A stretch of 64,000 bases of DNA, taken from the NCBI GenBank assembly GCA_036971475.1, contig JBAIZL010000001.1, positions 82,041,483 to 82,105,482 of the forward strand. Reading direction: 5' to 3'. The notes beneath the pieces are model-generated. The model was not told where the DNA came from and did not search any database. It saw nothing but the letters and a program-made list of their open reading frames with translations. This document shows, piece by piece, positions 13,601 through 55,600 of this stretch (positions are counted from its first letter, which is position 1; each line of letters opens with the position of its first letter). Position numbers and translations under genes: made by a program. This DNA comes from Prosapia bicincta (taxonomy: Eukaryota > Arthropoda > Insecta > Hemiptera > Cercopidae).

Positions 13601-16600
13601 ACAGTGGTCTTTGTCAATCGAAGAGAAAACACAAAAAGAAATATGAGAGAATGAAATAAAATAATTGTAATCACAGATTGTGTAGAGTAGAAATCAGATG
13701 TCACAGATGCACAGATTAAAGATATATATATTGTTTCCATGAGCATATGAGTGATTATAGTTTATATAGGTCTGTCAGGGGAAAAAAATAAGGCTATTTG
13801 GAGAAAAAAAAAATGAATGGATTTATCTGATGTTGAGGTTAGGGGATTCTCTGGACTTGGTATACCACTGGTATGATAGTTCCCACCTTCTCAGTTCTGA
13901 GGGATTGCAATCAGGGGGGAGTGATTTAATTATTTTTGTGGTATAGCAGTCATCAAAAGTTGTGATGTTGTGACTCGCAGCATGTTGAGCTGTTGGTCTA
14001 TCCATATTCATAATTTTAACATCATGTCTGTGGCCATTCATTCTGATATTCAGACCATCCGTGGTCAGGCCTATGTACTGTGCTGAGCAAAGTTTACATT
14101 GTAGCTGGTATATGACATTTTTCGATGTACAATTATGATGACCCTGTATTTTGAAGACCATTTTTGTTGTTTGGCTGTTGAAACTATTTGCTGAGGGGTG
14201 TATTGGACACATCTTGTATCTAGGTTTATTGCATGAGAAGGAGCCATGAGGAAGTTTGTGTGGTTTCTCTGCATCAGGGTCTGGTAGTTTAGGATGTACT
14301 AGGATGTTTTTCAAGTTGGGAGGTTGCTTGTACTTGCGGTGGATCGGTGAAAAGATTTTTGGTGTGGACGGAAGCTTGAAGAATTTTGAAGCCATCTCTC
14401 AATATCTTGTTGAGTTTATGTAGAACAGGATGGTAGTCTGTTATTAAAGACAGTTTATTTTGTTCTGTTTGTGGTTTATGGTGAACCGAGGATAGTACTG
14501 AATGAATTTGGTTTTCAATGAATTTTTTTGGGTATCCTCTTCTCTGGAAGGCTGTTGATATCTTTTTATTAAAATCTTCCAATTCCCTATCATTCGAACA
14601 GATTCTTTTACCCCTGATTGCTTGACTGTATGGAATGGGTCGTTTTATGTTTATTGGGTGGTTGCTGTCGAAATGGAGATATTGTGGGTGGTTTGTCGGT
14701 TTGATGTGAATTCCTGTGTTGATATTTCCATTCTGGAGTGTTACCTCTACATCCAAAAAGGTGATGGCTGATGTAGATTTCTCCCAGGTAAATTGAAGTG
14801 TGGAGAAATGTGTCAGGCTGTCTAAAAACATGGGATTGTTGGAAGAAAGTTTTCTAAAGACACAAACATACCAGCCATTATGTTGGTATAGATATATAGA
14901 TGACATCTTCCTAATTTGGACACAGGGTGCTTCAACACTTGAGGCATTTTTCACTTGAGAGATGGCTTCAAAATTCTTCAAACTTTCCGTCCACACCAAA
15001 ATCTTTTCACCGATCCACCGCAAATTTGGTACAAGCAACATCCCAACTTGGAAAACATCCTAGTACATCCTAAACTACCAGACCCTGATGCAGAGAAACC
15101 ACACAAACTTTCTCATGGCTCCTTCCCATGCAATAGACCTAGATGCAAGACGTGTCCAATACACCCCTCAGCAAATAGTTTCAACAGCCAAACAACAAAA
15201 ATGGTCTTCAAAATACAGGGTCATCATAATTGTACATCGAAAAATGTCATATACCAGTTACAATGTAAACTTTGCTCAGCACAGTACATAGGCCTGACCA
15301 CGGATGGTCTGAATATCAGAATGAATGGCCACAGACATGATGTTAAAATTATGAATATGGATAGACCAACAGCTCAACATGCTGCGAGTCACAACATCAC
15401 AACTTTTGATGACTGCTATACCACAAAAATAATTAAATCACTCCCCCCTGATTGCAATCCCTCAGAACTGAGAAGGTGGGAACTATCATACCAGTGGTAT
15501 ACCAAGTCCAGAGAATCCCCTAACCTCAACATCAGATAAATCCATTCATTTTTTTTTTCTCCAAATAGCCTTATTTTTTCCCCCTGACAGACTTATATAA
15601 ACTATAATCACTCATATGCTCATGGAAACAATATATATATCTTTAATCTGTGCATCTGATTTCTACTCTACACAATCTGTGATTACAATTATTTTATTTC
15701 ATTCTCTCATATTTCTTTTTGTGTTTTCTCTTCGATTGACAAAGACCACTGTGTGGTTGAAATACATCATTGTGTAAGTGCTTTTATGTTTTTCTATTTC
15801 AAAACTACAGAGTGGACTCTTACCAAGGTAAGTCTGTCAGTCTCCTAGTCCAAAAAATCTATATATATATATATATATATATATATATATATATATCACT
15901 TTCACTTATGTACTTAAACAAGAATCTTACTTGGCATTTATGTGAGTAGTTTCAAAGACTGGTTTTGTCTCCATCCTCGGGGATACTGAACAGGGTTTTT
16001 GTGGACTGCGAGCTGCGTGGATTTGCCGTTGACCTTGGTGTACCGTTAAGTTCTATTTTTAGATTCACTGCCTTATGCGAGTTTTTAACGTTTGTTTTGG
16101 GGTTAATATTGTCTATTGGATTGAATAATTTATCGTTTTTGGATTTTATTTGTATCTGTTCGTTAATGATATTATTTTTATTTTTATAAATTTCTAGTTG
16201 TTCCCAGATTGTCATTTTGAGGCCTTTTTGAACCTTTTTTACTAGGTGTACGTTTTTTAATGTGGGGAATGTGTGTTTGTTTTTGATGGCTAAGTTTGAG
16301 TTATAAATTTCAGGTTTGATGTATGCATTGAGGTGTTCTTGATATCTGTCTTTTAATTTCTTTTTTGTTTGGCCTATGTATATTTTATTACAGTCTGGGC
16401 ATTCGATTTTGTATATTCCGTTATTAAGTGTGGGACATATTTTTTCTGGTTGGTTTATTTTGTTGATTATGTTTCCTGTGTTTTTGTAGGCTATGTTAAT
16501 ATTATTATTTTTTCACTTACACTTTAAAAAATGTTTTAACTTGCCTATAGTAGCTCTTACTTTGCTTTTTGAGGACGGCCGTTTCGGGAGATGTGTCCCT

Positions 16601-52600: not shown

Positions 52601-55600
52601 TCTAACCACCCCTGGACACACAAAATTAACACTTACAGTAACATGATAAATAAAGCAATAAAATACACACAGGATAACAAACAAAAATTAAATGAAGAAT
52701 TAGATAACATTACAAAAATAGCAATAGAAAATGGATACAACAAACACATTATAAAAATTATATACAATAAATTCACAAAAAAACTTAACCTCAACACAAC
52801 ACTACAACCGGAACACAAAAATAATGCAAATAAAAAAATCTACCTAAAATATAAATACACCAATAACAAAATAAAAAAAATAACAAATATATACAACAAA
52901 GAATACTACACTCCAACATACAAACCAAACAACAAAATAATAAAATATCTTAATAACACAAACCACAAAACAAATTCAGAAAAACATAACCTATCAGGAA
53001 TTTACAAAATTACATGCAACAACTGTAACGCATTTTACATAGGAAAAACAACCAGATCATTTAAAATAAGATTTGAAGAACATTATAGAGCATTCAAAAA
53101 CAAAAATTCAAAAGTATCAAATGTTGCAGCACACCTAATATCACAAACATAAAATAACAAATTACGAAAATAACCTAACCATACTAGAAATAAATAATAA
53201 CCCAATAGAACTAAACTCACTAGAAAAATACCACATTTATAAAAACATACACAACAATTTAATGAATCTACATACAACATATACAGAAGACATACTATAT
53301 AAAAACATCATACACACAGATCAAGAGAAAGTGCGTGTAACGTCAACAAATACCAATATCACGGACCGAACATCTACACCAGAAAAATATCAGTGATTTG
53401 ACAATGGTCAAGTGACCGAAAGGTGCCTCATCACTCAAGGTGAAATTATTGCACTTAATGGCGGATAAAATTACTTACAATAGTAATATATTAACTTTAT
53501 AAAGTCAGTACAACGGAAAAACAATGCATAACGTAAAATATCAAGAATATATATATATATATATATATATATATATATATATATATATATATATAAGTTA
53601 CGTGATTTATTAAGCACCAAAGGTTTTTTTAAAATGATTTTATTTTTACAAACTTTTTCATAAATTTAGAATAACTTGAAGTTGAAATTATTACAAAATT
53701 AGGCCTAACAAATAACAACTGATATACATTCAGTTGGAGTGGAGACAACTGTTCTCTTCTAAAGTTCGCTACACACTAACTTGACTATTGTCCGTAGGTG
53801 CACAATACAGATAACCTGCATCAGCGAAATATTAATTATGTCATCTTAATAGTAGCTAAATCTAAAATATTTAGTTACATAACTTATATATATATATATA
53901 TATATATATATATATATATATAAAGTTACATGGTAAATATAGCCTTATTTCTCCAATCAAGTTTGAAATTATATTTTTTCTATTAGTAAAATTTTATTCA
54001 GTAATTTTGTCAATTGTAACAGGTGGGACTGTAGGGCAGATACACCATTGATTCCTTTTGAACAATTTCAACCCCAGAACTCTGAAACTTCCTTAACTGG
54101 GTGGGTGTTAGTCAAGTACTCATAATACTGTGAACATGCTCTGACATCTTTGCATGAGGATACTACCTGATCAAGGACCAACATGACTGGCGGATGAGCA
54201 GTAGCACTTACATATTCTGTAAAGCATGCTCACAGCAGTATCCCAGATCAGAGTTTGCCACGTTCTAACCCTTTCAGTACTCCCAACAGCAATGATTCTG
54301 GCCTTTGGCCTTTTAAATACCCCTGTGAGAAGATCTAAGTGTTCTAATGTATAGAGATATGTCGATAATATATGTGTATGTGGATATGCATTTGAGTGTA
54401 TATATTGTAGAAGCAAGTGTTGTTAGTGGTGTCAGATTAGACTGAGGTACCACGAGAAACACCAAACACCTTTTAGTAAGTGCAACTAGTTAGCTCCCCC
54501 CTACGGATTGTACTTACTAAAGTGTGTGAAAAAAATGTTTACAAAATTATAAAGTTTTCTACTCAGACAAAATTATAGCTTAGTTGGAAAAGCATTTATA
54601 ATTGGTCACCCAGGAGGTTTTGCACTCTTTTTCTTGAAAATATAAGCTTCATTCTTAAATAAAACCTATAATATTAAGAAAAGTAATTAGAAAACTGAAT
54701 GTGGGTCTAAAATATTACTACAACATTACTTGTTTAAGTAAAAACATTACAGAACTATAAGTAATAGACTTATAAGTTGTACTGAACTGTTAGTTGATGA
54801 TTGTGTATTATAATATTTCAACATCATCATTTGAAATGATTATTACATTTGATTTGTACTATTTTTTGTTATGTTTCAGACCCTCTAAAAGCTGGTTCCA
54901 TGTTTCATACCTGATATTTTCAATTATTTACTACATAGTTCTTACATGTATGATGGCTTTCAGTGCTTCTTCTATTTATGAAGAAAGCAAAAGACCATTA
55001 ACAGTGCTATTTTCTGTGCCTTCTGAATGTTACTGCATTGAGGTAAAAGTTAAAATTACATTACAAATACCAGAAATACACTCTGTGTGTGGTTTTGGCG
55101 ACCAAGGTGATTGTTTTTCACGCTGCGATGGGGGAGGCATCACTGTGGGTTAAAAATATATATTTTATGTGTTAGTAGCCTTATTCTGCATGGCTGAGTA
55201 TGCACAAATTCTCTCTATTCATAATGTCCTGTAGTAACTGTGTATACTGAGCAGTGTTGTCCGCTGTGGTAACAGGTGGTGAGGGTGATAACAAGAGTTC
55301 AGTTGGTGAGTCGACTTCAACCACCCTCCCCAATCACAGCGAGTCAGAGCATTATGTCAAAAAAGTTCTTAGGGGCGCAAAAGAAGAAAGTCTTATAAAG
55401 AAAGTGAGTTAGCAAGTCAGGCTTTATTATATAAAGCGTCAAAACCAATTAAATTTTATAAAAATAATATAACAAAATATTGCCCTGACTGATTTTAGTA
55501 TGTCTACACTTAGCTGTAGTTCCTCCTCACAAAGTAGCTCAAGAGGCCAAAGACACTGAATTTGTACCTGTACCTGCCCCTACTGATGATACCATTACAA

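Follow-up and report, generated by a model that had tools for sequence, protein, structure and literature searches.

How a hammerhead ribozyme can carry the wrong letters at two core positions in copy after copy is the question raised by a 64,000-nt stretch (the window) of Prosapia bicincta contig JBAIZL010000001.1. Its Penelope-like elements (PLEs) are accompanied by hammerhead motifs, many of which have the core UUGACAA in place of CUGANGA and hence a U3-A8 pair where C3-G8 is expected. These motifs were found to be a genuine natural variation on the PLE hammerhead with strong support, and they stand out for their scale and for the way they sort by family. We further propose, with a probability of about 0.72, that C3-G8 was replaced by U3-A8 in several families and kept paired by selection, and that the motif acts as a dimer cut after C17. 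The family labels PLE-B, C, D and F1 were taken from a preliminary description of the window, and A, F, T, K, G1-3 and Poseidon-1, -2 and -3 were introduced here; the name Poseidon and the separation of these elements from B and C are our assumption, based on the look of the proteins and on blastp values rather than on a tree. Genome-wide counts refer to the 2.2-Gb assembly (G000).

Hammerhead anatomy and an additional core base

All PLE-B and PLE-C copies named in the preliminary description had the layout ascribed to them, in the order stem I, UUGACAA, one additional base, a short-looped stem II, GAA, stem III, C and the other half of stem I (Table 1). Stem III was self-complementary in both families, beginning with A and ending with U, while the sequences of B and C differed in all three stems; the B copy at 29619+ had one G·U in stem II. 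More generally, three helices surrounded a core with GAA (A15.1) and U16.1, stem I being weak in Poseidon-2, and positions 3 and 8 were pairable. B, C, F and Poseidon-2 have U3-A8 in place of the C3-G8 of a CUGANGA core; the pair, rather than its letters, was taken as the defining trait because published natural hammerheads also vary at 3/8. The diminished, self-complementary stem III of PLE hammerheads was present as ACGGCCGU, AGGUGCCU, ACGCGU, AACGUU, ACUAGU and AUGUACAU.

The core had been described as seven bases long, and these seven were read correctly, but it is better given as seven plus one. A first descriptor, in which stem II directly followed a seven-base core, gave zero matches, and this exposed an additional A or U after A9, ahead of stem II, in the nine window sites later matched by the strict descriptor. 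The same was seen genome-wide for C3-G8 sites, where the count was made: 25,498 (reversed control 186) had the extra base versus 459 (control 91) in which stem II follows A9 directly; among the matches listed, several of the latter do have the extra base, in the form of a G.

With the strict descriptor (the hammerhead layout with positions 3 and 8 left free), nine hammerheads were found in the window, five U-A, three C-G and one U·G, versus two in 1,248 simulated 64-kb windows drawn from a first-order Markov model of the window. That the motifs merely resemble hammerheads by chance within a repeat, a coincidence that shared ancestry would copy throughout a family, is hardly credible in view of this difference, and is already contradicted by the common layout of about a dozen motif families with differing stem II and III sequences. 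Hammerheads are unusually dense in the window: 20 random 10-kb stretches (183,500 unmasked bases) searched with similar strictness yielded one clear hammerhead, with C3-G8, in locus L049; a looser scan of these stretches gave one U-A copy, in L041. An Rfam scan of the window matched no hammerhead family (E up to 1). RF00008 also had no match in the genome, a search that says little because 0 of 14 control genomes matched either.

Parts of the earlier evidence fell away on inspection. The two UUGAAAA copies cited in support of the variant (62521+ and 42547+) have CAAAA instead of the expected CGAAA and have lost G12, so that both look dead. The UUGACAA core attributed to PLE-D1, for which no coordinate had been given, does occur in the Poseidon-type fragments at 13617- and 15736+, but the C-like pair at 17066- and 17113+ reads UCGACAA. 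Such cores, with C at position 4, were also found in C-like copies elsewhere (L017 447+, L021 near 120-).

The 3/8 pair across the genome and between families

The genome-wide count of 3/8 states proposed with the preliminary description was made with exact patterns, including the one extra base, in which all other core bases, C11.1-GAAA and U16.1-C17 were fixed and 10-18 bases were allowed for stem II plus loop; each 3/8 class had its own reversed pattern as control. Descriptors were used for the pair counts because MAFFT misaligned family A against B. The classes counted were U-A, C-G, U·G, C·A and G-C. Paired states dominated, and U-A and C-G were nearly equal: U3-A8 was found at 25,886 sites (control 1,212), about half of the ~51,000 paired sites when set beside the C3-G8 number given above. 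U3·G8 was found at 2,149 sites (control 301) and C3·A8 at 2,241 (control 444), part of the latter being one tandem array, and G3-C8 showed no excess (139 vs control 297). Net of controls, U-A and C-G made up 93% of the four Y3-R8 classes, mixed states were ~14 times rarer than paired ones, and the odds ratio was 188; the counts are of copies, which are not independent events, and no p-value is attached to them. A tandem array with ~55- and 118-bp spacing at G000:C8:39790526-39795870 carries a hammerhead-like motif mismatched at 3/8 (C3·A8).

A bias of mutation toward A and T could have moved positions 3 and 8 independently, without selection on the pair, with families then amplifying their masters. 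The base composition of the window (32% GC; CpG observed/expected 0.57) would suit such a bias, and copy numbers do follow masters. We nevertheless regard it as very unlikely, given the rarity of the mixed states and the existence of two close Poseidon-type relatives, described below, that differ at both positions.

To sort the states by family, 353 rows from the first contigs (100 U-A, 100 C-G, 100 U·G and 53 C·A) were assigned on the sequences of stems II and III with a similarity threshold of 0.8; 51 of them fit no family, and all row counts below are among the matches listed. Together, B, C, F and Poseidon-2 had 90 U-A rows and 0 C-G rows: 67 U-A, 4 U·G and 6 C·A in B; 20, 11 and 3 in F; one U-A and one U·G in C; and two U-A in Poseidon-2. 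The reverse was seen for A, T, K, G1-3 and Poseidon-1, with 91 C-G and 0 U-A rows: 44 C-G, 12 U·G and 11 C·A in A; 23, 15 and 9 in T; 10, 10 and 5 in K; 9, 16 and 5 in G1-3; and five C-G, four of them exact, in Poseidon-1. The four samples represent very different genome totals, and family percentages were therefore weighted by genome counts. So weighted, the main state accounted for ~99% of B, 96% of A, 94% of F, 92% of T, 89% of K and 83% of G1-3, shares that are rough, with few rows in the small families. Unpaired or wobble states occurred in both kinds of family, from ~1% (B) to 17% (G1-3) of each large family by the same weighting.

Poseidon-3 had 11 U·G rows, one U-A row and one C-G row, the last a poor match (0.82). 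An initial reading of this family as fixed for U·G was withdrawn: 11 of its 12 sound rows came from the U·G sample, which was drawn 12 times more densely, and its one exact U-A row may represent ~260 copies, versus 140 exact U·G copies.

That B, C and F are merely worn CUGANGA families was rejected on the lack of C-G rows among the matches listed and on the weighted shares. By a lenient rule, stems II (at least 3 bp) and III (at least 2 bp) were both present in 65 of 100 U-A rows and 57 of 100 C-G rows; the U-A copies are thus no more worn than the C-G copies. UUGACAA confined to worn copies beside CUGANGA copies of the same family was likewise not seen among the matches listed. The earlier argument for selection on the pair rather than decay is supported by this sorting and by the state of the U-A copies, and the tendency of the large families to keep mostly one pair or the other suggests that selection still keeps the pair matched.

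Host elements and a probable repeated change of the pair

The frames beside the motifs resemble Penelope-like reverse transcriptases (RT) and GIY-YIG endonucleases (EN), and the motif adjoins such a frame in B, C, Poseidon-1 and Poseidon-2. Locus L012 has an open RT-EN frame of 417 codons with a B core starting 38 bp past the last codon; the same order was found in L019, and in L021 a C-type endonuclease frame is followed by the motif UCGACAA. The RT/EN proteins of B and C share 35-43% identity (blastp), and the two families have the swap in common with different stem sequences. The best database match of a Poseidon-type protein of the window was from the leafhopper Macrosteles quadrilineatus (65% identity). 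No hammerhead could be tied to the D-type reference RT (18588-19229), and a search of viral contigs and genome contigs confirmed no PLE relatives outside this genome.

Poseidon-1 (48856-) and Poseidon-2 (13617-, 15736+) align across the end of the reading frame and on into the sequence beyond it, encode proteins with 77% identity and have the motif at the same place, reading CUGAAGA in the former and UUGACAA in the latter. The difference between them is one double change at 3/8. If C3-G8 is the older state in the Poseidon clade, as in the Poseidon element PAc of Anolis carolinensis, then B/C and Poseidon-2 changed separately, giving at least two changes; the pair has thus probably changed at least twice, although we infer the second independent change from this comparison. 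In Poseidon-3, the exact motif occurs in 140 copies with U3·G8 and in at least one with U3-A8, and its U3·G8 may represent a wobble step between the two pairs.

Proposed mode of action and known hammerheads

Since stem III is palindromic and loop-less, the working form would most likely be a dimer, as the PLE literature also suggests. Two hammerheads, either from the tandem pseudo-LTRs (LTR, long terminal repeat) of one transcript or from two RNAs, would share a stem III duplex, and cutting after C17 would yield element RNA of unit length. The swap should be tolerated, since nucleotide 8 acts via its 2'-OH and not its base, with the 3-8 pair holding the core, and the path from C-G to U-A may pass through U3·G8.

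Several observations weigh against this proposal. In unconstrained dimer folding of six motifs, only the D-type gave a dimeric hammerhead with stems I, II and III; in the B and C dimers stem I was missing, with stem III formed alone or together with stem II, while the dimers of family A took on other structures. The three Poseidon-2 copies with readable flanks have a stem I of only 2 bp, and in family C the UUGACAA form may have derived from UCGACAA by CpG decay. Copy counts reflect the amplification of masters, the constancy of the other core bases follows from the search patterns, in which they were fixed, and self-cleavage of the U3-A8 copies is predicted from sequence. Finally, hammerhead mutants of PAc inserted normally in vitro, and cleavage required the protein (PMC11167929); selection need not, then, act on cutting.

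The PAc result also lends some weight to the idea that the fold was kept and catalysis lost, the motif serving the reverse transcriptase of the element as a structured site for binding or priming while the core drifts within the fold. Further core oddities of some copies, namely the extra base after A9 and the C at position 4 in the D-type, would fit such drift. The ~51,000 sites that keep U4, G5, A6, A9, C-GAAA and U16.1-C17 with a pairable 3/8 speak against it, if weakly, as the patterns demanded those bases; in addition, G3-C8 would also keep a pair, yet shows no excess. We consider a purely structural role unlikely and favor a paired, working U3-A8 core. As an extension, C3-G8 and U3-A8 could be interchangeable peaks of a two-state eight-base core, crossed repeatedly via U3·G8, each family being tuned by its pair; the weaker U-A core would then cut more slowly, or depend on dimer or protein, sparing full-length RNA for insertion. 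This extension is speculative, and we hold it to be doubtful.

Minimal PLE hammerheads were reportedly characterized by Cervera and de la Pena in 2014 and by Lunse, Weinberg and Breaker in 2017. The present motifs share with them the type I orientation, a location in pseudo-LTRs, a stem III that is absent or very small, an arrangement in tandem and suspected dimer action, and may differ from them in that half of the paired sites here are U3-A8 and nearly all C3-G8 sites have the extra base after A9. The plus-strand hammerhead of Chrysanthemum chlorotic mottle viroid is said to have its extra base after A9 together with C3-G8. An extra nucleotide in its conserved core is on record (De la Pena and Flores, 2001; PMC3705267), in a viroid, whereas here the extra base occurs in retrotransposons and nearly genome-wide. 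Descriptions of minimal PLE hammerheads are also found in PMC7761336 and PMC6155905. Exactly this U3-A8 covariation was noted in several natural hammerheads by Perreault et al. 2011 (PMC3088659, section 8), where the in vitro activity of 3/8 exchanges is credited to Przybilski and Hammann 2007; the main text of that paper does not contain the word Penelope, and its several examples differ from whole families with ~25,000 sites in one genome. In the PLE hammerhead of PAc the 3/8 pair matters as well, as single C3G or G8C changes kill cleavage and the double change partly restores it (PMC11167929), although this is an engineered G3-C8, which has no excess in the present genome, and not a natural U3-A8.

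The chemistry of the U3-A8 swap is thus not new, and the earlier statement that no PLE group fixed for it had been described needs qualification: the swap itself was reported for natural hammerheads in 2011, while the PLE setting was not found in the main text of that report. Titles and abstract openings listed by full-text searches named no PLE hammerheads with a U3-A8 core, Cervera 2014 and Lunse 2017 standing outside this comparison, and the scale, the fixation by family and the PLE setting may be new. Families differ in both letters of the pair, and the letters match in the majority of the tens of thousands of copies, which suggests that a functional core is important to the elements in the animal. 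The C-G, U-A and U·G states of related Poseidon-type motifs provide natural material on how a hammerhead core crosses a fitness valley. Such ribozymes would escape search models that require stem II to begin right after CUGANGA.

Table 1. Hammerhead motifs of the window, with core sequence followed by the extra base.
Motif	Position	Strand	First core base	Core	Remarks
PLE-B	29615..29656	+	29619	UUGACAA + A	stem II GGGA/UUCC; stem III ACGGCCGU; C17
PLE-B	46664..46705	-	46701	UUGACAA + U	
PLE-B	16570..16611	-	16607	UUGACAA + A	adjoins GIY-YIG fragment (15952-16512)
PLE-B	55894..55935	-	55931	UUGACAA + A	stem III worn
PLE-C	53392..53435	+	53398	UUGACAA + U	stem I AGUGAU/AUCACU; stem III AGGUGCCU
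PLE-C	52350..52392	-	52386	UUGACAA + U	
PLE-C	51681..51723	-	51717	UUGACAA + U	U·U mismatch in stem I
C-like	17030..17071	-	17066	UCGACAA + U	position 4 is C; half of 110-bp inverted pair
C-like	17108..17149	+	17113	UCGACAA + U	second half of inverted pair
PLE-B, decayed	62517..62558	+	62521	UUGAAAA	G12 changed to A
F1, decayed, hammerhead-like	42542..42585	+	42547	UUGAAAA	A instead of G12
Poseidon-2, hammerhead-like	13587..13619	-	13617	UUGACAA + A	downstream of reading frame end (13823); stem I 2 bp only
Poseidon-2, hammerhead-like, second copy	15734..15766	+	15736	UUGACAA + A	stem I 2 bp only
Poseidon-1	48824..48860	-	48856	CUGAAGA + A	C3-G8; stem I UUGA/UCAA; downstream of reading frame 49091-50932
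Family A	44100..44147	+	44106	CUGAUGA + A	first of three in 224-bp tandem repeat
Family A, worn		+	44330		C3-G8; middle repeat
Family A	44548..44595	+	44554	CUGAUGA + A	
Family A	60544..60589	-	60584	CUGAUGA + A	
Family A	40529..40574	-	40569	CUGAUGA + A	
Family A	12541..12586	+	12546	UUGAUGA + A	U3·G8

Some further arrangements of the motifs were observed. Head-to-head inverted hammerhead pairs occur in the window (17030-17149) and at G000:C4:671-770, and 11 such pairs, with a spacing of 21-64 bp, were found among ~100 B sites among the matches listed; they are perhaps a signature of PLE insertion. In B copies (e.g. 16570-16611), the 3' half of stem III (GGCCGU) has an alternative pairing partner upstream, ACGGUC. 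The resulting competing hairpin was the best monomer fold in both B motifs tried and could possibly act as a switch. The three 224-bp tandem repeats at 43927-44598, each with one family A hammerhead, resemble the non-LTR retrozymes described for animals. Apart from the hammerheads, the reading frames at 6567-11792 include a DUF1759 match and belong to what we take to be a BEL/Pao-type LTR retrotransposon.

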